A DNA stretch of 51,513 bases. Source: Anaeroplasmataceae bacterium (GTDB taxonomy: Bacteria; Bacillota_I; Bacilli_A; Acholeplasmatales; Anaeroplasmataceae). Position 1 is the first letter of the stretch. Every line of letters begins with the position of its first letter. A program made the position numbers and the translations under genes. Below the pieces are notes generated by a model that saw nothing but the letters and a program-made list of their open reading frames with translations, did no database searches and was not told where the DNA came from. This document shows, one piece after another, positions 21,623 through 34,020 of the stretch. The stretch is taken from assembly GCA_029067355.1 (NCBI GenBank), contig JAIEEQ010000005.1:1-51513 (forward strand), written 5' to 3'.

Positions 21623-24600
21623 ATGAAAAGAAAAGCATTATTTTTATTTGTATTTTTAAATTTATTTACTTTTGTTTTGTTTTCTTGTGCTACATGTAAA
21701 CATGATTATGTTTGGAATCATAATGAGGAACAGCATTTTCAAATTTGTAATAAATGTAGCAAGGTTATCAACAAAAGTTCTCATGAGGCTAACTGGCAAG
21801 TTATAAAAGAGGAAACATGTAAAGAGGCAGGGTTAAAGGAATTTAGATGTGAAACTTGTAACTATGTTATGAATCAAGAAATAATGCCAAATGGGGATCA
21901 CGAGTTCCAGCCATTTACCACAGAATCATCTTGTACTAAGGATACTATTTATGGAAAGACTTGCTTACATTGCGATGAACAAGTATTAGAGTATGTTGAT
22001 TCTTGTACAGGGCATCATTTTTCAGAATGGGAAAAAGAAACTGAAAATACTTGTTCACAAACTGGATTAGAAAAGCGAGTTTGCTTAAATGAAGGATGTG
22101 GTCTTGAAGAAAAACGGGAAGTTAAAAAGGTCAGTCATGATTTTACCATTGAACAAACTATAACTCGTGATGATACGTTATTATATGAATGCAAAAATTG
22201 TGGATTAACCTATACGCGTCATAGACAAGATGAAAACTGTACTTATTGTGATTCCATTGAACTTTTTAACCAAAGTACAAACTTCACATTTAATATTATT
22301 TGTTTTGAAGATGAGCAGTATATTAAAGAGCATTTAAAAATTTATTTGAATTTTTTGGATGGAACTCAAAAAGCAAGTGAATTAGAAATGGAATATAGCA
22401 TCACTTTACTAGGAGATGGCCTATGTCAAATAAAAGGAGACTATGATTCTGGAGAAACGTATATTGCAAAACTAAATGGAGAGTTAAGATTTGAAAAGTA
22501 TCTTACAAGTAATATAGTATTTACAACGACTTTTCTATCAGATAATATTGTTGAATTTAATGACGAATTAAAATTCATAAATGATTATATTTCATTAGAT
22601 TGCTCAGAAAATTCGGAATGCTTTTATTTAACTGTTTTAGATATAGGCACATTAGAAGAAGATGATATAATTTGCATTGGCGAGATAAATTCCATAGAAG
22701 AATTAAAAACAATTAATTTATTTGAAGAAAAATCCCCAGCCATAACTTTTGGAAAAGTTCAAAGATGCTATAAAATTGATGGCGGATGGAAAATAATATT
22801 AACTTATCCTCAGTTAGATGAAATATTTAAAGACTTGGATTTCTATGAAAAAGGAAGTGTAGATTTAGAAAAATTAGGTGTTGATATAGAAGAAATTAAA
22901 CCAGAAGTGGAAGCGGCATTTATACAAAGTGAGGAATTTATTAATTTTTTAGCTGTATATCATGAAACCGTAGAAACGTATGCGAAAGAACGCGGCTATG
23001 ATTCAGTACGACTAAATAAAGAAAATCAAAAAGGCTTGTATATCTCTTCCCCTGAAATAAAAATTTCTGGTACAAAGTTTTCAATTCGCTTAAATGGTGG
23101 TGCAGAAACTCCAATTACTGTACAAGGAAAGAATATAGGAAATATTTCAGTAGATTTTTCAGCTTTTGCAGAAGTACAATTTATATTTTCTTTAAATATA
23201 AGTTTTAAGAAAAAATGGATTTTTATTACAGGAGTAAAGTATATTGATATACAATTAAAGCAATTAGATTCTTTTGATTTTGACTTTAAAATAAAAATGA
23301 ATATTGAGTATTCTTCAGAAGAAACAGAAGAAAAGGATTATGTTTATAATACAGACCCTAAGAGTCATAAGCTTCATGTGAAAAATTGTAGATATCTTGA
23401 AAATGTTCAAGATAAAAGCAAATTAGAATCACTTAATCAAAAACAGGCTTATATTAAATATCACGAAGGGGTTGCTAGTGAGTGTCAAATTTGCTTGCCT
23501 ATTGAAAAATTAAATAGAAAGTCATTTGTTATTAATGCAGATAGGAAAATAATTCATTGTTTAAATTGTAATCACGTAAAAAGAATGAATTTTGATAATG
23601 CCATATTTTCATCAGATTCAGCTCAGTCTCTTAATAGTAAGGGATATTCCTATTGTAGTTGGTGTCAGCCAGAACTCAAGGAAAGCTTAGATTTTGAAGA
23701 ACAAATGTTGGAAACTTTGAAATATGAAAATTGGAAAGAGCATATAGAGGAAATCAAGCAATGGGCTAAGAACTCTAATGTTGATGAGTATAAGCCTAAA
23801 GGAATACGTTTAGGAAGTGTACATTTTAATGTCGCAATATTATTTACTGTTAACCTAGATATTAGCTTAATAATTAATTTTAAGCTGGAAGCATCGTTAG
23901 ATTATAAGTATCAAATACAGCATGAATTAGTTTATGGTATGAGAATTCAAGATGGAAGAACCCAAACGTATAATTCCTCTAAGGAATTGAATTCTAAAAA
24001 CGAATTAGATTTGATGGGAAGGCTTGATGTTACTGTTGGAGTACAGGCCGATCTTTATGTCAGCGTTATAGGATTATCGAAATTAATACGTGCTGGATTT
24101 ACAGCCGAAGTAGGAGCGTATGCCAGTGCAAGTGGGGTTGTTCATCAAGGATTTGAAGATAAAAAGAATTATGGTGGCGCGTATTTAGAAATGGGAATAT
24201 ATATTCAAATAGATGCGTATTATAAAGTATTTGGATGGAACGGAAACCTGTCCTTGATTGATACTAAATTCCCTATCCTCCAATTTGGATATGATAAGGT
24301 ATATTATGCATTTGTAAATCCTATTGAGTATTTAGATTTATCTTTAGATTATACTTTGGAGGAAGAAAAATTTTTAACTTTAGAGTTTATAAATGTAAGG
24401 AATTTAAATTCAGGAACAGAAGTGCTGCATTTTAATAATAATGATGGAAAATATTCAGTAATTGTCACTTTATCAAACGGAGAGTATTGTAGATATGAAA
24501 ATGGAAGAATTCTAATTAATGATTCAGCTCCATGCCAATTTGAAGACATTCTAAGAATTCAGATTGTTGGAGATTCTTCTTGGAAAAACTATATTCCAAA

Positions 24601-25717
24601 CAATGCTACTTTTTGCTTAGATGACTACCTTATTCCTATCTACTATTATAGTGAGAATAGGCATAATTTTATTGCAGTTGAAAATAAGCCAGCTGATTGC
24701 TTTTCAGATGGTTATACCAAATATTCATGTGAGGTATGTAATCAAGAAAGGGAGGAAACTGAACCTCAATTAAGTCATCAAGTACAAATTAATAAAGGAC
24801 ATGCTGCAACCTGTTGGGAAAACGGAAAGACAGATGAGATGATTTGCTTATTATGCAATAGTGTCTTAATTGAAAGCAGTGTGCTACCTGTTTTGGGACA
24901 TAAGTTTAATGAAAAAGGAATTTGCTTACATTGTGGAAATGATGAGAATGACTGCATAAGTATTGGGTTGGAATATAAACTTGCTGAGGATGGAAAATCT
25001 TATAGTATTGTGGGAAATGGGCAAAATACGGATTCTAATTTAGTCATTCCAGAGGCCTATTTAAACATACCTGTTACAACGATAGAAAGAAATGCTTTTG
25101 CGGGATCTAGTTATGTAAGCATAAGTATAGGAAATGGAATAAAAAATATAGAGGAGAATGCTTTTGCCAATTGTAACAATTTGCGTAATTTAAAAATTGG
25201 CAAGGAAGTAACAGAAATAAATTCAAATCCTTTCAGAGATTGTTCTTCATTAGAATATATTATTGTAGATTCAAACAACACCTCATTTGTGAGTGAGAAT
25301 AATTGTATTCTTTCTGCCAACAAATCAACATTGTTTGTAGGCTGTAAAATGAGTATTATTCCTGAAGGAGTAACGAACATTCGATTACTAGCATTTTGTG
25401 GTTGTAGTGATTTAAATAGCATAGTAATTCCAAGCACAGTTGATACTTTGCAACCACAGGCTTTTCTGGATTGTACAAGCCTTGAAATTATTATATTGCC
25501 AAACTCACTAAAGTATATAAATTATAAATGCTTTGAAAATTGTCCTTTAAAAAATATATATTACGCTGGGAATTCTATTTCTTGGGATAGAATAAATATT
25601 GATAATAAAGATCTTAAACTTGAAGAAATTGTATATTTCTACTCATCTTCAAAGCCAACTTCTAAAGGCAATTATTGGTATATAGAAGAGGAACAAATTA
25701 AAATATGGAATTATTAA
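21623..25717 (+). CDS. Large Cys-rich lipoprotein with C-terminal BspA-like leucine-rich repeats
   Basis: Signal peptide with lipobox LFSC; multiple C..C / H-C motifs; two tandem HxxxC...C..C elements; C-terminal LRR_5-like repeats (NGIKNIEENAFANCNNLRNLKIG...). Confidence 0.85.
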   Translation: MKRKALFLFVFLNLFTFVLFSCATCKHDYVWNHNEEQHFQICNKCSKVINKSSHEANWQVIKEETCKEAGLKEFRCETCNYVMNQEIMPNGDHEFQPFTTESSCTKDTIYGKTCLHCDEQVLEYVDSCTGHHFSEWEKETENTCSQTGLEKRVCLNEGCGLEEKREVKKVSHDFTIEQTITRDDTLLYECKNCGLTYTRHRQDENCTYCDSIELFNQSTNFTFNIICFEDEQYIKEHLKIYLNFLDGTQKASELEMEYSITLLGDGLCQIKGDYDSGETYIAKLNGELRFEKYLTSNIVFTTTFLSDNIVEFNDELKFINDYISLDCSENSECFYLTVLDIGTLEEDDIICIGEINSIEELKTINLFEEKSPAITFGKVQRCYKIDGGWKIILTYPQLDEIFKDLDFYEKGSVDLEKLGVDIEEIKPEVEAAFIQSEEFINFLAVYHETVETYAKERGYDSVRLNKENQKGLYISSPEIKISGTKFSIRLNGGAETPITVQGKNIGNISVDFSAFAEVQFIFSLNISFKKKWIFITGVKYIDIQLKQLDSFDFDFKIKMNIEYSSEETEEKDYVYNTDPKSHKLHVKNCRYLENVQDKSKLESLNQKQAYIKYHEGVASECQICLPIEKLNRKSFVINADRKIIHCLNCNHVKRMNFDNAIFSSDSAQSLNSKGYSYCSWCQPELKESLDFEEQMLETLKYENWKEHIEEIKQWAKNSNVDEYKPKGIRLGSVHFNVAILFTVNLDISLIINFKLEASLDYKYQIQHELVYGMRIQDGRTQTYNSSKELNSKNELDLMGRLDVTVGVQADLYVSVIGLSKLIRAGFTAEVGAYASASGVVHQGFEDKKNYGGAYLEMGIYIQIDAYYKVFGWNGNLSLIDTKFPILQFGYDKVYYAFVNPIEYLDLSLDYTLEEEKFLTLEFINVRNLNSGTEVLHFNNNDGKYSVIVTLSNGEYCRYENGRILINDSAPCQFEDILRIQIVGDSSWKNYIPNNATFCLDDYLIPIYYYSENRHNFIAVENKPADCFSDGYTKYSCEVCNQEREETEPQLSHQVQINKGHAATCWENGKTDEMICLLCNSVLIESSVLPVLGHKFNEKGICLHCGNDENDCISIGLEYKLAEDGKSYSIVGNGQNTDSNLVIPEAYLNIPVTTIERNAFAGSSYVSISIGNGIKNIEENAFANCNNLRNLKIGKEVTEINSNPFRDCSSLEYIIVDSNNTSFVSENNCILSANKSTLFVGCKMSIIPEGVTNIRLLAFCGCSDLNSIVIPSTVDTLQPQAFLDCTSLEIIILPNSLKYINYKCFENCPLKNIYYAGNSISWDRINIDNKDLKLEEIVYFYSSSKPTSKGNYWYIEEEQIKIWNY

Positions 25718-25806: not shown

Positions 25807-25881
25807 CAAATTAAAGCAAAGAAATAGTATAAGTTTTTTATAATGTTCTTGTTTTTTGAAAATACTATAACTGGTGATTTT

Positions 25882-26757
25882 ATGAAGTTGATTTTAAGAC
25901 TTTGGTTGGTTACATTTGGTATAATTTTAGTATGGGTGTATTTTTTATTTATATCACCTAAAATTTTTAATAATCATATCATTACCATTCCAAATGTAAT
26001 TAACCTAAGTGAAGAACAGGCAACTAAGGAGCTTGCCAGAAACAAAATAAAATATCAAATTACCTATGTGGAAAGTGAGAAAGAGCTTGCGATGAAGACA
26101 GTGCCCTATGCAGGAACTAAAATCAAGTCTGATTATGTGATATCCTTGTATGTTGGTAAGAAAATGCCTATTGCTTACAAAAGCTATTTAGGAAGAATTT
26201 ATGAGGATATTGCAGATGAAATTGAATTAATGTGTAATAATTATGGATTAAAGCTCAAAGTAGAGTATGAAGAAACTGACTTTACCATTGCTGGTGTTAT
26301 CATAAAAGAATCTCTCACTGATGGATCTGTATTAAATCAGGGGGATGAGCTCTGCTTGACGATTTCTTCTAATCATTCTACTTATATGCTTCCTGATTTT
26401 GTTGGATTATCTTTGTCTGAGGCAGTAAAACTGATTGACGAATATCATATTAAAGTCAATTTAACTTATATTTCAACTCCAGTAGATGAGGATATCATCA
26501 TTTATCAGTCTACTCCTGCCAATACATTAATCCAAAAAAATAACCCCTATGCTTTAGATCTTTATGTGTCTAAAGGAGTGAAGGACACGACTATTATTGA
26601 TGTGGAAACCTTCATAGAGGTCATTGCTCATTTGGGATATGAATTAGAGGTAAATTATGTAAATTCCAACGAATTAGAAAATAAATTAGTTGCGTTTCAG
26701 GTCCAAAAGTTATATGATATTAATAGAGTTAAATATATCCTTTGGATTACAAAATAG
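25882..26757 (+). CDS. Membrane-anchored PASTA-repeat protein lacking a kinase domain
   Basis: N-terminal TM (LWLVTFGIILVWVYFLFI) then PASTA-like units (ITIPNVINLSEEQATKELARNKIKYQI...; YMLPDFVGLSLSEAVKLIDEYHIKVNLTY...). Confidence 0.82.
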   Translation: MKLILRLWLVTFGIILVWVYFLFISPKIFNNHIITIPNVINLSEEQATKELARNKIKYQITYVESEKELAMKTVPYAGTKIKSDYVISLYVGKKMPIAYKSYLGRIYEDIADEIELMCNNYGLKLKVEYEETDFTIAGVIIKESLTDGSVLNQGDELCLTISSNHSTYMLPDFVGLSLSEAVKLIDEYHIKVNLTYISTPVDEDIIIYQSTPANTLIQKNNPYALDLYVSKGVKDTTIIDVETFIEVIAHLGYELEVNYVNSNELENKLVAFQVQKLYDINRVKYILWITK

Positions 26758-26765
26758 GAGAACGC

Positions 26766-27683
26766 ATGCAAGGAAGAATTATTAATTTAAATGGCGGAAA
26801 ATATCAGGTGGCATTAGAGGACAATTCTATTGTTACAATACCAGCAAGAGGTAAGTTTAGAAGCATCAAAACGATTCAGGCAAACCCTAACAGCTTAAGC
26901 AAAAAGGAAATCACACAAATTGTAAAGGTTTCTCCTAAGGTTGGAGATTTTGTTAGTGTAGCTGATGGTCGGATTGATACTCTTTTAGAAAGAAAAAATG
27001 AGCTTGTTCGTCCTGATATTGCTAATGTGGATCAAATTCTTTTAGTTTTTGCTGCTAAAGAGCCAGACTTTTCTTCCTATCTTTTAGATTTATTTCTTGT
27101 AAACATTACAAGGAAGCATATTTTTCCTATCATAGTTATAACAAAAATTGATAAAATGACTAAAGAAGAGCTAATAAATCTAAAAAAAGAATTAAGCTAT
27201 TATGAGCAAATGGGATATCCAGTTTGTTATGTGAATAGTAAAACAAAGGAGGGCGTTTCTTTAGTTGCTGAGCTACTGGAGGGAAAGGTTACGGTTTTGT
27301 CTGGACAGACGGGTGCTGGGAAATCGACCTTAATTAATGCAATTCTTCCAAATTTTGAATTAAAAACACAGGAAATCAGTCAGGCCCTGGGAAGAGGAAA
27401 GCATACCACTCGTGAAACAACGCTTTATTCCTATAAGGCTGGTTATATTGGAGATACTCCAGGCTTTTCAAAGCTAGATGTGATTGGAATAGAAAAAAGA
27501 GAGCTATCTGGTTTGTTTGTTGAATTTTCAAATGAATTTTGTCGCTTTAAGGATTGCTTGCATCAGAAGAATGCAAAGGAATGTGGCATTCATCAGGCTG
27601 TATCAAAAGGAAAAATTTTATCCTCTAGGTATGAAAACTATTTAAAAATGCTGTCACTTATTGAAAAGGGGGAAAAAAGATAA
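26766..27683 (+). CDS. rsgA: Ribosome small subunit-dependent GTPase A
   Basis: Circularly permuted GTPase: TKID, GQTGAGKSTLINAI, GDTPGFSKLD; Cys/His zinc knuckle. Confidence 0.96.
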   Translation: MQGRIINLNGGKYQVALEDNSIVTIPARGKFRSIKTIQANPNSLSKKEITQIVKVSPKVGDFVSVADGRIDTLLERKNELVRPDIANVDQILLVFAAKEPDFSSYLLDLFLVNITRKHIFPIIVITKIDKMTKEELINLKKELSYYEQMGYPVCYVNSKTKEGVSLVAELLEGKVTVLSGQTGAGKSTLINAILPNFELKTQEISQALGRGKHTTRETTLYSYKAGYIGDTPGFSKLDVIGIEKRELSGLFVEFSNEFCRFKDCLHQKNAKECGIHQAVSKGKILSSRYENYLKMLSLIEKGEKR

Positions 27684-28330
27684 TGGAAATTTCTTTATCC
27701 ATTTTAAATATGAATTATAATCATTTAGGAGAACAGTTAAGTTTGCTTAAAAATGAAATTAAATATCTTCACTTAGATGTTATGGATGGACATTTTGTTC
27801 CAAACATTAGCTTTGGGCCTGCTTTAATGAAATCTATTCATAAGGAGCATTCCTTTGTTTTAGATACTCATTTAATGATTTCTAATCCTAAGGAGTACAT
27901 CAAGAGCTTTGTAGATGCTGGAAGTGATTGTATTACCTTTCATTTGGAGGCTGTTGATAATGTAGCTGAGCTCATTGAATATATTCATAGCTTTGGGGTT
28001 AAGGCTGGAATATCCATAAAACCAAACACAAGTGTAGAAGAGCTTATTCCTTATCTTCCCTATATTGATTTACTACTAATTATGTCTGTTGAGCCTGGAT
28101 TTGGGGGACAAAAATTTATAGAAGCTTCTCTTGCTAAAATAAAGCAATTAAAAGAGTGGAAGGAAGACAAGGGGTATTCCTATCTCATAAGTATTGATGG
28201 TGGCATTACAGATCAAACCATAAGTCAGGTGTTTTCTTATCTGGATTTGGCGGTGGTTGGGTCCTATATCACATCTGCAAAAAATCCAATAGAAAATATA
28301 AAAAGGCTTAAGCATATTTTTAATAGCTAA
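27683..28330 (+). CDS. rpe: Ribulose-phosphate 3-epimerase
   Basis: HLDVMDGHFVPNISFGP, LIMSVEPGFGGQKFI, DGGI. Confidence 0.96.
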   Translation: MEISLSILNMNYNHLGEQLSLLKNEIKYLHLDVMDGHFVPNISFGPALMKSIHKEHSFVLDTHLMISNPKEYIKSFVDAGSDCITFHLEAVDNVAELIEYIHSFGVKAGISIKPNTSVEELIPYLPYIDLLLIMSVEPGFGGQKFIEASLAKIKQLKEWKEDKGYSYLISIDGGITDQTISQVFSYLDLAVVGSYITSAKNPIENIKRLKHIFNS

Positions 28331-28443
28331 TTCATAAATTATACTAAAGGTGATACCCATTAGAATAATTATCATTAAGCTTCCAAATTTCTTAGTGAAG
28401 TTCTTAAGCTTGTTTAGCAGGAAAAAATAAATAAGATAAAAGG

Positions 28444-28481
28444 ATAGAAATTGTTTTTTTTAAATGATTTCTATTTTTTTT
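28444..28481 (+). terminator. Intrinsic terminator downstream of rpe
   Basis: ATAGAAAT ... ATTTCTAT then TTTTTTTT. Confidence 0.65.
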
Positions 28482-28501
28482 ATAAAAAATGAAAAAAACT
28501 A

Positions 28502-28556
28502 TTGACAGTTGAATGTGTATTCAACTATAATATGAATGGTTGAACGAATATTCAAC
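28502..28556 (+). promoter_or_regulatory. Promoter with two ArsR/SmtB-type operators
   Basis: TTGACA (28502-28507), inverted repeat GTTGAATGTGTATTCAAC (28508-28525), TATAAT (28526-28531), second inverted repeat GTTGAACGAATATTCAAC (28539-28556). Confidence 0.9.
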
Positions 28557-28576
28557 TAAAAAGGAGGATGAGAGAG

Positions 28577-28951
28577 ATGAAGGAATTTGTAGACTGTGAA
28601 GTTGAACATCCGCATAAGACGCTGATTCAAGAGGTAAAGACCTTAATGCCAGCAGAAGAGCATCTTTATGATGTTGCTGAATTGTTTAAGGTTTTTGGAG
28701 ACTCTACTCGAACAAGAATTTTAGCGGCACTATTTAATCATGAGCTGTGTGTATGTGATATTTGTATGATTGTAGAGATGACAAAATCAGCTGTATCTCA
28801 TCAGCTTAAGGTTTTAAGAGACTTTAACTTAGTGAAGTATCGTAAGCAAGGAAAAGAAGTATTTTATTCCTTAGCAGATGAGCATGTGTTTTTAATCTAT
28901 GAAAAGGCTCTTGAGCATATTTTAGAAAAAAAGGAAGGTATAGAAAAATGA
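28577..28951 (+). CDS. ArsR/SmtB family metal-responsive repressor (CadC-like)
   Basis: ELCVCDICMIVEMTKSAVSHQLKVLRDFNLVKYRKQGKEVFYSL; SD GGAGG favours ATG 28577. Confidence 0.94.
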   Translation: MKEFVDCEVEHPHKTLIQEVKTLMPAEEHLYDVAELFKVFGDSTRTRILAALFNHELCVCDICMIVEMTKSAVSHQLKVLRDFNLVKYRKQGKEVFYSLADEHVFLIYEKALEHILEKKEGIEK

Positions 28952-29166
28952 AAAAGGTATTTAAATTAGTTGATTTGGATTGTGCTAATTGTGCAGCAAA
29001 GATGGAAAGAAATATTTTGAAAATTGATGGCGTCCAATCAGCAAATGTTAGCTTTATGTCACAGAAGCTAATGATTGAAGCTGATGATGAGCGCTTTGAA
29101 GAAATTATGGATGAAGTGGTTCGTGTATGCAAGAGGGTAGAGCCTGACTGTATAATTAAGCGATAA
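28948..29166 (+). CDS. Stand-alone heavy-metal-associated (HMA) domain protein
   Basis: LVDLDCANCAAKMERNILKIDGVQSANVSF. Confidence 0.93.
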   Translation: MKKVFKLVDLDCANCAAKMERNILKIDGVQSANVSFMSQKLMIEADDERFEEIMDEVVRVCKRVEPDCIIKR

Positions 29167-29267
29167 AAATAGTAAGGATACATATATCTTAACGATTTAG
29201 GCTTTGTGCTGGTATAGAGGATTAAAATCATAGATAGAGGTATCCATAGGAATGGAGGAAGTATGAA

Positions 29268-31136
29268 ATGACAAGAAGACAGAAAAAAAATTTGATTAGA
29301 ATTTGTTTAACGCTTTGTGCTTTTATTGTCTTATTTACTGTGGACCATATTTTTCATTTGGATCAGGTCATACCTGATGAAAAGCTGAGTTGGATTCTTC
29401 CAGCATGTCTTTATCTGCTGGTGTATTTATTTATTGCTTATGATGTACTTTGGAAAGCAATTAGAAATATTTTTCATGGACAGATTTTTGATGAAAATTT
29501 TTTAATGTGTGTTGCTACCATTGGTGCTTTTGCAATTAGCTCCTTTGATGAGGCTGTGGCAGTTATCCTTTTTTATCAGGTTGGAGAATTCTTCCAAAGC
29601 TATGCGGTAGGAAAATCCAGAAAATCCATTTCTAGTTTGATGGATATACGTCCAGATTTTGCCAATGTAATCCGCAATGATTCCATAGAAATGGTAGATC
29701 CTGATGAGGTTGAATTAGAAGAAATTATTGAGGTGAAGCCTGGGGAAAAGGTGCCGTTAGATGGCATAATTGTAAAGGGATCTTCAACATTAGACACAAA
29801 AGCCTTAACTGGAGAATCTCTGCCAAAAGAGGTAAAAACTGGTGATGAAATCATTAGTGGCTGTGTAAACCTCACACAAACGCTTCAAATTCAGGTCAAG
29901 AAGGCGTTTTATGACTCTACGGTATCTAAAATACTAGATTTAGTAGAAAACGCCTCTAGCCAGAAATCTAAGGCAGAAAACTTTATTACGAAATTTGCCA
30001 AGTTTTACACGCCAACGGTCGTTATTTTAGCTATTTTATTAGCTGTGATACCAGGAATGATTACAAGGGACTATCTGGTTTGGATATATCGCGCATTAAA
30101 CTTTTTAGTTGTTTCCTGCCCATGTGCTCTTGTTATTTCTATTCCATTATCCTTCTTTGCAGGTATTGGTGCTGCCTCCAAATATGGGATATTGATTAAG
30201 GGGTCTAATTATCTAGAAAAGTTGAATCAAGTAAATACCTTTGTCTTTGATAAAACGGGAACCTTAACAAAAGGAAACTTTGCAGTTACAAGGGTTATTC
30301 CTGAGGAAAGAAGAGAAGAAATTTTAAAGCTAGCAGCAATTGCTGAGGCCTCCTCTAATCATCCCATTGCCAAAAGTATATTAGCTGTGGTAGGATTACA
30401 GGAGGAAAAGGGATATACCTTGACAGATATTGCAGGACAAGGAATTTTGGCGGTTTCAGGAGATACAACGATTTATTGTGGGAATGAGAAACTTATGGCC
30501 TCCTATGGTATTGAGTATCAGACCTTTGAGCCTATGGGAACGACAATTTATGTTGCTAAAAATAAAGAATATATTGGCGCTATCTTCATTAGTGATGAAA
30601 TTAAGGAGGAAGCTCAAGAGGTTATAGAGTCTTTAAATCAGATGGGAAATGAAACTATTATGCTTACAGGAGATAATGAAACCATTGCCAAAGCGGTTGC
30701 CACTAGACTGGGAGTTACCTCTTATAAGGCATCCTTGCTTCCCCAGAATAAGGTGGAGGAGGTTGAAGGACTTCTTGCGAGAAAAAAAGAAAAAGAGTAT
30801 TTATCCTTTGTGGGGGATGGTATAAATGATGCTCCTGTATTAATGCGTTCAGATATTGGAATTTCTATGGGAAGTGTTGGCTCAGATGCTGCCATAGAGG
30901 CTTCAGATATTGTCTTAATGCAGGATGACCTAAGAGGACTTCATATTGCAAAGCGTATTGCTAGAAAGACAATGCGAATTGTATTTGAAAATATTATCTT
31001 TGCTTTAGGCGTAAAGGCTGTGGTTTTAGTTCTTTCAGCTTTAGGGTATAGTAATATGTGGTTAGGTGTATTTGCTGATGTTGGTGTTGCAATATTGGCA
31101 ATATTAAATGCTATGCGTTGTTCAAAAATCAAATGA
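29268..31136 (+). CDS. P1B-type heavy-metal-translocating ATPase (CadA/ZntA-like)
   Basis: SCPCALVISIPLSFF, DKTGTLT, SSNHPIA, GDGINDAPVL. Confidence 0.96.
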   Translation: MTRRQKKNLIRICLTLCAFIVLFTVDHIFHLDQVIPDEKLSWILPACLYLLVYLFIAYDVLWKAIRNIFHGQIFDENFLMCVATIGAFAISSFDEAVAVILFYQVGEFFQSYAVGKSRKSISSLMDIRPDFANVIRNDSIEMVDPDEVELEEIIEVKPGEKVPLDGIIVKGSSTLDTKALTGESLPKEVKTGDEIISGCVNLTQTLQIQVKKAFYDSTVSKILDLVENASSQKSKAENFITKFAKFYTPTVVILAILLAVIPGMITRDYLVWIYRALNFLVVSCPCALVISIPLSFFAGIGAASKYGILIKGSNYLEKLNQVNTFVFDKTGTLTKGNFAVTRVIPEERREEILKLAAIAEASSNHPIAKSILAVVGLQEEKGYTLTDIAGQGILAVSGDTTIYCGNEKLMASYGIEYQTFEPMGTTIYVAKNKEYIGAIFISDEIKEEAQEVIESLNQMGNETIMLTGDNETIAKAVATRLGVTSYKASLLPQNKVEEVEGLLARKKEKEYLSFVGDGINDAPVLMRSDIGISMGSVGSDAAIEASDIVLMQDDLRGLHIAKRIARKTMRIVFENIIFALGVKAVVLVLSALGYSNMWLGVFADVGVAILAILNAMRCSKIK

Positions 31137-31139
31137 AAT

Positions 31140-31186
31140 AAAAGGCTTCAATTTGTAAAAGAAATTTGAAGCCTTTTATTTTTTTG
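31140..31186 (+). terminator. Intrinsic terminator after the P1B ATPase
   Basis: AAAAGGCTTCAAtttg...AAATTTGAAGCCTTTT then ATTTTTTT. Confidence 0.88.
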
Positions 31187-31254
31187 TGATAAAATTAAAA
31201 TATCTTCTAAAAAAATCTTTAGATATTCGTTCTATATAGTAGGGGTGAGGGAAA

Positions 31255-31752
31255 GTGGATTTGGAAAAAGAAGTAGAAAAGTATAAATTGGGAAATGAAC
31301 TGGCCTTTCATCAGATTTACAAGGAAACAAGGTCATTAGTTCAGTTTGCAATTTATTCCTATATTCCAAATCGTCATATTGTTGAGGATTTGATGCAGGA
31401 CACTTATGTAAAAGTTCATCAGAAAATAAAAGAGTATCACCAGAAAAGCTTTCGTTCATGGATTTATCTAATTGCTAAAAATACAGCACTAGACTATTTG
31501 AAAAAGAAAAAGGAAATGATTATGGATTCTCTTGATGTTTTTCCTGATATGAGCAGCACGCATCCCTTTTTGTATTATGCAATCCGTCATCTTAAAGAAC
31601 TGGAGCGTGAGGTTTTCCTGATGAAGGTATTGTGTGGCCACACATCAAAACGCATTTCAGAAATCTTAGAAATAAAGCCTTCAATGGTTAACCAGTATTA
31701 TCTTTTAGCAAAGCAAAAATTAAGAGAATATTTAAAGGACGTGGAAGAATGA
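31255..31752 (+). CDS. ECF-type RNA polymerase sigma factor
   Basis: Region 2 VEDLMQDTYVKVHQKI...RSWIYLIAKNTALDYLKKKK and region 4 ERE VFLMKVLCGHTSKRISEILEIKPSMVNQYYLLAKQKLREYL; GTG start. Confidence 0.88.
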   Translation: MDLEKEVEKYKLGNELAFHQIYKETRSLVQFAIYSYIPNRHIVEDLMQDTYVKVHQKIKEYHQKSFRSWIYLIAKNTALDYLKKKKEMIMDSLDVFPDMSSTHPFLYYAIRHLKELEREVFLMKVLCGHTSKRISEILEIKPSMVNQYYLLAKQKLREYLKDVEE

Positions 31753-33491
31753 AATTAAAGAAATATGAAAAAAGACTGAAAAAGGAATACAAAGAAACCT
31801 TTGTGTCTAAGAAAATAAAAAGTAAAAGATATATTCAATTTAAGCTTAGGTATGTGGTAGCTACTGTGCTTGGAATTTTACTTGTAGGTTTGTTTATACA
31901 ACACCTTTGTGTATTAGGGCATAATGCAGCAGTAAAAAAGCATAATCTAGCCATTCGTCAAAAGGTTTATGATGTAGAAAATTCAAGCGCGCTTACAAAA
32001 GTAAAAGATGAGAAGGAAATAAATACTATTATTTTAAATTATAAAAATGAGAGTACCTATCAAGAGAAGGAAACCTCTATTTTGAGTAAGATATTTTCTT
32101 TGCGCATTGGCGGCTGTGCTGGCAAGGCTTATGCACCTCAACCAGCCCCAGGAGATTCAGGATCTAAGGATGCTTTTCATACCAATGTACAAATTGAGGG
32201 GATAGAGGAGGCAGATGTTGCTAAATCAGATGGAAGGTATATCTATTACTTGAATCTAAGCACACTTTTTGTTTATGACATGACAGAAGAAAAAAATATT
32301 GCAAGTATTCAAGATGATGGCTATGAGCTTTTTATTTATGAAGATATAATAATTACAATTGGAACAGCTTCGACCTGTATTTATGAGTTTACACAAAATG
32401 AATTAAATCAGCAAAAGAAGATTAGCTATAATTATTATCTTACCTCAAGAATGATGAAAGACAGCTTATATTTAGCTTTTGGAGATTATGTAAAAGAAAA
32501 TCAAATTTTATATAACAATTGTTATTATGATGCTTGTAGTAATCCAAATTACATTTACACCCTTTATCATTTAGATCTGAAGACGCTAGATACTAAAGTG
32601 GTACAGCTTTTAGCATCAAAAGATACAAAGCTTTATGCTTCTAATAATGCCTTCTATTTTGCCTCTTTAGAAAAACAATATACATCAATTTCTATTTTCT
32701 CTTTAAGCTTAGAGCCTATGGGGGTTATTCGTGTTCGCGGATATGTATTAAATCAATTCTCTATGGACGAATATGATAATTACTTTAGAGTGATTACAAC
32801 AGATACTTCTAGAAATGCAGAGGAGTTGAATACAATATCCATTTTTGATTTAACTACCTTGACTCGAGTTGGTTATTTAGATCAAGGAATTGGAAAGGAA
32901 AGACAGGTTGTTAAATCAGTTCGATTTGATAAGGAAATTTGTTATGTGGTCACGTATGAAACGAAGGATCCCCTTTATGAAATTAACTGTTCTAACCCTG
33001 AAGAACCAATCATAATCTCAGCCTATGAAGCCCCTGGCTATTCAAGTTATCTTCATCCTTTTAAAATGGGAGATAAGGAGTATGTATTTGGGCTTGGATA
33101 TACAGATAATGGGAGTATGAAAATTTCAGTCTATGAAAGAACCGAAGGGACTACACAAGTTGGGAATGACTTTATACTGAGTCAAAACGAGTATTACACC
33201 AAAGCAGATTATTATAATCCAAATTTAAATGAATCCATCTTTAATAATCATAAGGCGCTATTTATATATGAGGAGGATAGCTATCTTTATTTGGGGATGG
33301 CAGTGGCCTTTGATGCTTATCTAATTTTTAAAATTGATGTCACCTCAGAAGAGGTAATTACAATATATCAAGACATTACTTTAATTCTAGTTAGTTGGGA
33401 AGAATCCCTATCTAGAGCCTTTTTGAAAAATGGAAAGCTTTATATAACCAACTATAATCAAGTTATTGTAAGGTCTTTTACAAATGAGTAG
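31749..33491 (+). CDS. Membrane-anchored beta-propeller domain protein; candidate anti-sigma/sensor
   Basis: Basic N-terminus, one TM (YVVATVLGILLVGLFIQHL), then HTNVQIEGIEEADVAKSDGRYIYYL, typical of the Beta_propel family (PF09826). Confidence 0.82.
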   Translation: MKLKKYEKRLKKEYKETFVSKKIKSKRYIQFKLRYVVATVLGILLVGLFIQHLCVLGHNAAVKKHNLAIRQKVYDVENSSALTKVKDEKEINTIILNYKNESTYQEKETSILSKIFSLRIGGCAGKAYAPQPAPGDSGSKDAFHTNVQIEGIEEADVAKSDGRYIYYLNLSTLFVYDMTEEKNIASIQDDGYELFIYEDIIITIGTASTCIYEFTQNELNQQKKISYNYYLTSRMMKDSLYLAFGDYVKENQILYNNCYYDACSNPNYIYTLYHLDLKTLDTKVVQLLASKDTKLYASNNAFYFASLEKQYTSISIFSLSLEPMGVIRVRGYVLNQFSMDEYDNYFRVITTDTSRNAEELNTISIFDLTTLTRVGYLDQGIGKERQVVKSVRFDKEICYVVTYETKDPLYEINCSNPEEPIIISAYEAPGYSSYLHPFKMGDKEYVFGLGYTDNGSMKISVYERTEGTTQVGNDFILSQNEYYTKADYYNPNLNESIFNNHKALFIYEEDSYLYLGMAVAFDAYLIFKIDVTSEEVITIYQDITLILVSWEESLSRAFLKNGKLYITNYNQVIVRSFTNE

Positions 33492-34020
33492 AAAAATGGG
33501 AATGAGGCTCCTATTGATTTTTTTGATTGTGATGCTGACAAGTAGCTGTATAGAAAATGAATATAAAGAATATGAAGCAAAGATGATTTCTAAAATTGAA
33601 ACAGAGATTTTGGGAGAGTATCATATGTGGACTAGGTGTAAACGTATTTTTGATTTTGAGCAAAATCAAGTCCTTGACATTATAGATGTAGATGAGGAAG
33701 CATTAAATCAATTTAAACAGAATTCTTATAATGATTTTGAGTATGATGATATTAACAATCAAAAAAAGGTAATTACTACCTTTACTGAAGACAAAAAGAT
33801 AACGTTTATTAAAAATATAATATTTTTAAATATCTATTCTTGGCAGGATGACTATATTTCAAAGGATGTAGTATGTGGTAGTAGTTCAAGCATAACTATT
33901 TATTTTACAGATTGCACCTATAAGTCTACTATTTTCTATTATCTATATCCTAAAAATTATGAAAAGATTGTGTCGTGCTTTCAAGATTCATTTGAGGTTG
34001 GATGCTGGTATAATTCTTAA
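33484..34020 (+). CDS. Small lipoprotein of unknown function
   Basis: Signal peptide with lipobox LTSSC; overlaps the preceding gene. Confidence 0.75.
   Translation: MSRKMGMRLLLIFLIVMLTSSCIENEYKEYEAKMISKIETEILGEYHMWTRCKRIFDFEQNQVLDIIDVDEEALNQFKQNSYNDFEYDDINNQKKVITTFTEDKKITFIKNIIFLNIYSWQDDYISKDVVCGSSSSITIYFTDCTYKSTIFYYLYPKNYEKIVSCFQDSFEVGCWYNS

Follow-up and report, generated by a model that had tools for sequence, protein, structure and literature searches.

Anti-sigma factors of the sigmaI-RsgI type are modular, with a short N-terminal sigma-binding part and varied outside domains. RsiV, the partner of sigmaV, has a short cytoplasmic part, and its sensor is the lysozyme-binding DUF3298. As described in Bacillus subtilis and Clostridioides difficile, RsiV is a single-transmembrane (TM) anti-sigma factor with an extracytoplasmic receptor domain, and release in the sigmaV-RsiV system is by two-step proteolysis (PMC6066255, PMC9044953). 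Anti-sigma domains of the ASDI type span 50 residues or more (PMC7406223), and in CnrH-CnrY, a class II anti-sigma system, two short cytoplasmic helices wrap around the ECF sigma factor and suffice to hold it (PMC7406223, PMC4598750). An extracytoplasmic beta-propeller lipoprotein, LpqB, is a partner in the MtrAB signaling pathway (PMC13068155), and WD40-like repeats are linked to ECF in the ECF57 sigma factors (PMC8999054).

Here, we analyzed a 51,513-nucleotide stretch of DNA from an Anaeroplasmataceae bacterium (the window). As an earlier note on this DNA had claimed, positions 31255 to 34020 hold three overlapping plus-strand genes, for an ECF sigma factor, a single-TM propeller protein with a basic tail, and a lipoprotein, a reading that is borne out by open reading frames, Pfam, and hydropathy. 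We estimate a probability of about 0.8 that this locus encodes an ECF sigma/transmembrane anti-sigma pair, in which a PF09826 propeller would be the extracytoplasmic sensor of the anti-sigma factor. The features of the locus are as follows.

31136 to 31181, + strand: intrinsic terminator between the upstream metal-ATPase gene and the sigma operon (RNA fold −19.4 kcal/mol, z −5.3, then a T run).
31212 to 31239, + strand: candidate ECF-type promoter (A-tract, N12, TCGTT, CTATATAG), probably autoregulatory (conserved CGTT position; exact pattern match).
31255 to 31752, + strand: ECF sigma factor with regions 2 and 4 only (GTG start, 165 aa; PF04542, PF08281, TIGR02937).
31749 to 33491, + strand: propeller protein gene (580 aa; ATGA overlap with the sigma gene).
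31749 to 31802, + strand: N-terminal cytoplasmic segment, residues 1–18 (MKLKKYEKRLKKEYKETF), candidate sigma-binding helix (conservation; low-confidence helix model).
31803 to 31853, + strand: basic juxtamembrane linker, residues 19–35 (hydropathy and charge).
31854 to 31910, + strand: single transmembrane helix, residues 36–54 (hydropathy; helix in the structure model).
31911 to 32177, + strand: extracytoplasmic stalk, residues 55–143, poorly conserved (alignment).
32178 to 33473, + strand: Beta_propel domain (PF09826), presumed sensor (Pfam; many antiparallel strands in the model, with residues 150–330 confident).
33484 to 34020, + strand: small lipoprotein gene, genus-level accessory (178 aa; 8-base overlap with the propeller gene; lipobox by direct reading).

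The sigma factor matched Sigma70_r2 (PF04542, 2.9e-14) and r4_2 (PF08281, 7.2e-12) and scored above the cut-off for TIGR02937; regions 2 and 4 are present and regions 1 and 3 absent, as in ECF sigma factors. The propeller protein matched PF09826 over residues 144–575 (3.4e-56, profile positions 3–490 of 495), scoring 191.6 bits against a gathering score of 22.4, and so belongs to this family across the whole domain. The terminator is predicted to separate the sigma operon from the metal-ATPase gene upstream. We rejected metal sensing via the upstream ArsR/metal-ATPase genes as a functional link because this strong terminator intervenes and the g2 loci examined have other upstream neighbors.

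In the genus, the module is placed between rsgA-rpe and rpmB-fakA (window positions 26742 to 34020). The same chromosomal slot holds a different type of module, a split propeller-ECF-single-TM cluster, at locus L190 of family f19, and the rpmB-fakA side of the slot is likewise present at L203. Upstream of rsgA, positions 25843 to 26757 encode a TM segment and PASTA-type repeats without a kinase domain, resembling a PrkC-like kinase minus its catalytic half. Positions 21623 to 25717 encode a lipoprotein of 1364 residues with BspA-type-like leucine-rich repeats near its C-terminus.

Like sigmaV-RsiV, the locus combines an ECF with a single-TM anti-sigma candidate that carries an extracytoplasmic domain. 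However, this outside domain is a propeller, and neither DUF4179 nor DUF3298 matched the protein at E up to 1. The short N-terminal part joined to an outside domain is also reminiscent of sigmaI-RsgI, and the window genome has another ECF partner with RsgI_M, but the window sigma factor, comprising regions 2 and 4, is an ECF, and neither the RsgI N-terminal model nor RsgI_M matched the propeller protein. The very short, putatively helical cytoplasmic part is similar to that of CnrY, although one conserved helix is evident here (in a low-confidence model) vs. two in CnrY, and the sensor of that system, CnrX, is a separate protein. LpqB-MtrAB, which we liken by description, is a two-component system rather than an ECF system. 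In ECF57, the sigma factor itself carries the repeats as a C-terminal extension, whereas here the propeller resides in a separate membrane protein.

Two side observations concern similar gene orders. Locus L099 (G000:C49), in the same genome as the window, holds a second ECF whose single-TM partner carries RsgI_M; next comes a second RsgI_M lipoprotein, making the locus one more receptor-type ECF operon, with a lipoprotein paralogue. At L107 and L109 (g4), overlapping genes for an ECF, a single-TM protein, and a lipoprotein have unrelated sequences, such that the three-gene order recurs with other sensors.

The cytoplasmic part of the propeller protein was claimed to be about 35 residues long and basic, and this was confirmed by hydropathy, with the TM starting at residue 36 and a net charge of +12 in the 35 residues ahead of it. 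From the positive-inside rule, we infer an N-in orientation, which gives the protein the general layout of membrane-bound anti-sigma factors: a cytoplasmic N-terminus, a single TM, and a gene directly after the ECF. In the family alignment, mean pairwise identity was 0.56 in residues 1–18, compared with 0.26 in the linker, 0.33 in the TM, 0.24 in the stalk, and 0.44 in the propeller. Within the tail, L10, K11, and E13 were invariant. The structure model (mean pLDDT 59) placed a low-confidence helix at residues 2–16, and the amphipathic moment of this helix showed no clear excess over shuffles. Only this one conserved helix is evident in the window tail, and part of the f19 relatives have space for a second.

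Pfam and NCBIfam anti-sigma models did not match the propeller protein, a point against the anti-sigma reading. The earlier impression was that the tail resembles no familiar anti-sigma domain. With 35 residues before the TM and no Pfam or NCBIfam profile match, it does not fit a class I anti-sigma domain (ASDI, including the zinc type). Contrary to the earlier view, the tail is not unusual in being short: every ECF partner examined in the family and class, including the RsgI_M partner in the window genome, has 34–57 cytoplasmic residues, and CnrY is a published short-domain case (PMC7406223, PMC4598750).

Profiles of the window-family (f1) and f19 tails aligned from residue 1 (hhalign probability 86.7%), and hhalign of the window-family tail against the tails of split and other ECF partners gave nothing significant. 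When 1959 ORFs from other loci were searched with the tail, 3 of the top 7 were N-termini of fused f19 proteins, at weak E-values of 0.5 to 5.5. Distances of the sigma factor correlated at 0.88 with those of the tail and at 0.71 with those of the stalk, values that are uncorrected for the species tree. A PDB sequence search found no relative, and the matches from genome contigs were distant propellers only. We drew no function from a fold search because only generic propellers matched, using the model with a mean pLDDT of 59.

PF09826 was present in 15 of the 55 genomes of the window family. The window-type sigma scored >210 bits in exactly these 15 genomes and at best 92 elsewhere in the family; part of this gap is due to training because the sigma profile was built on 14 of the 15, but the genome left out (G014) still scored 212 bits. 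Wherever the contig reaches the 5′ end, the sigma gene lies directly upstream of the propeller gene, with frames touching or overlapping. This linkage is far beyond chance. The earlier note had suggested examining the co-occurrence of all three genes across genomes, and the sigma-propeller part of the linkage was conserved (15/15 family genomes, directly upstream where the contig allows), whereas the lipoprotein was linked only in part of the genus. A lack of conserved linkage between sigma and propeller, named there as grounds for abandoning the idea, was not what we observed, as the linkage held in the family.

In a class-wide survey, propeller loci took three forms: fused, split, and lone. 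Fused loci (f1, f11, f19) consist of an ECF and then a tailed single-TM propeller. Split loci (f9, f12, f19) consist of a propeller lipoprotein or two-TM propeller, an ECF, and then a separate single-TM protein of 114–363 residues, 46–52 of them cytoplasmic, encoded directly after the ECF; a second propeller gene follows in several f12 split loci. Lone propellers have no ECF. A tail was counted when ≥30 residues preceded the first TM, and three tailed-looking exceptions were set aside as apparent start-call or contig-end artifacts. By this count, tailed propellers (34–57 residues before the TM) lay directly after an ECF gene in 23 of 23 cases class-wide, whereas about 100 propellers that are lipoproteins, two-TM proteins, or untailed never had an ECF in that position. 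The 30 propeller loci checked elsewhere in the order all encoded lipoproteins or two-TM proteins and lacked a nearby ECF, and the phylum sample gave no propeller match above the curated cut-off outside the class.

In a tree of the propeller part (a quick search with SH-aLRT support only), well-supported branches forced a minimum of two origins for the fused arrangement and three for the split one. In the sigma tree, the ECF partners came from several ECF lineages, some with long branches. That one extracytoplasmic domain has repeatedly become associated with different ECFs is difficult to account for if it has no part in ECF signaling.

A possible promoter element was also common to these loci. 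In all 14 family loci, CGTT occurred 23–31 nt ahead of the sigma start; of the 142 other ORFs in those loci, 1 had it in the −42 to −18 window. The element was picked after viewing the alignment, and the 14 loci are related to one another. By eye, similar elements were seen ahead of the lead gene in fused and split clusters of f19, f11, and f9. The −35 part of the candidate promoter is weak. The pattern AAA-N12-TCGTTNTATWWAR gave an exact match to the sigma promoter in 7 of the 8 module-bearing genus genomes, and no exact site was found among the matches listed for the 3 module-less ones. In five of the eight (G000, G042, G045, G046, and G051), a pattern site preceded an orthologous operon that encodes a lipoprotein (about 130 aa) together with an MFS transporter; in G046, the lipoprotein start is in doubt, with the predicted ORF spanning the site. 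The remaining exact or one-mismatch sites inspected were mostly within genes. Genome-wide counts of the pattern did not exceed the reversed control, so we dropped a genome-wide regulon and limited our reading to recurrence before orthologous genes. On this basis, the lipoprotein-MFS operon is a predicted target of the sigma factor, and the best clue to the output is efflux or uptake of some substance together with a surface lipoprotein.

The earlier note had proposed that the second gene, in the position of an anti-sigma factor, acts as an anti-sigma-type sensor. Perfect co-occurrence, linkage that recurs across several lineages, a tail found only where an ECF lies directly upstream, and the common promoter element support this proposal and lead us to conclude that the propeller protein probably acts as the membrane anti-sigma/sensor cognate to the ECF. 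Identical linkage would be expected of an activator or a chaperone. The propeller protein could instead be a co-sensor or positive regulator, ECF-controlled or ECF-activating, with inhibition left to another protein or the ECF controlled by transcription. This would suit the split clusters, where the propeller is a lipoprotein and a distinct protein is the inhibitor candidate, and propeller lipoproteins are known as signaling partners, such as LpqB with MtrAB (PMC13068155). Yet the tail is restricted to fused loci, and neither the window nor the other fused loci have another single-TM candidate beside the ECF, making this explanation unlikely. We consider it very improbable that the two genes are adjacent without regulation, the propeller being a sigma target with an ordinary outside job (adhesion, polysaccharide or metal binding) and the basic tail a topology signal. 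Most PF09826 proteins in the class do have no ECF neighbor, N-in proteins commonly have basic N-termini, and the tail could be partly topogenic, but conservation in the first 18 residues is residue-specific (the three invariant positions), the sigma gene is invariably the immediate upstream neighbor in the family, and tail and ECF are always paired across several independent origins.

The lipoprotein (lipobox LTSSC by direct reading) had been viewed as a core partner, and a three-part switch that needs it is barely credible: its gene overlaps in the window and homologues lie downstream of the propeller in five other genus genomes (6/8 module-bearing genomes, window counted), but it is missing at most loci, including G051 and G046, where the 3′ flank is intact and rpmB is next after the propeller gene, and no homologue was found beside other family loci. 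A Pfam search placed the lipoprotein in no family. From its distribution, it is a genus-level accessory, perhaps a regulated surface protein.

Returning to the anti-sigma/sensor pair, the helix of residues 1–18 would hold the sigma factor at the membrane in the resting state. An outside signal would reach the propeller either directly, as a ligand that binds it, or via another envelope protein; the anti-sigma would then let go through a conformational change or regulated intramembrane proteolysis. The proteolytic route, by analogy with RsiV, RsgI, and RseA, would involve a site-1 cut in the stalk, a site-2 cut by an M50 protease, and cytosolic proteolysis. A site-2 protease of the M50 type is present, and release by conformation is equally possible. 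Free sigma would transcribe its own operon and the lipoprotein-MFS operon from A-tract/N12/TCGTT promoters, as predicted from the common sites. Related families have the same parts as separate genes, namely a propeller lipoprotein, an ECF, and a small single-TM protein.

Peptidoglycan as a necessary signal was weakened as a candidate because five g2 genomes carrying the pair (some of them incomplete MAGs) have no PF00905 match; the genus and two other g2 pair genomes do. Across family f1, penicillin-binding transpeptidases occur in all genus genomes, in a minority of g2 genomes, and in none of the g4 genomes, an apparent case of repeated cell wall loss inside the family.

More broadly, PF09826 propellers may have been recruited at least five times in the class as extracytoplasmic receptors for ECF sigma factors, in some cases by fusion to a minimal anti-sigma helix and in others as lipoproteins encoded next to a separate small anti-sigma. 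These would form an undescribed receptor class with a signal independent of the cell wall, given that the pair is carried both by relatives that have penicillin-binding proteins and by relatives that lack them. We offer this wider proposal tentatively, at somewhat less than even odds. Our literature search, which did not cover the 2021 ECF reclassification, found no description of the sigma-propeller pair; an existing ECF group entry is possible, and the novelty is provisional. Still, the finding points to a likely role for some members of the widespread, uncharacterized PF09826 propeller family and would add a new sensor type to ECF signaling in little-studied bacteria. The fused vs. split arrangements provide a natural test of the task of each part, and the predicted lipoprotein-MFS operon may serve as a readout in the search for the signal.
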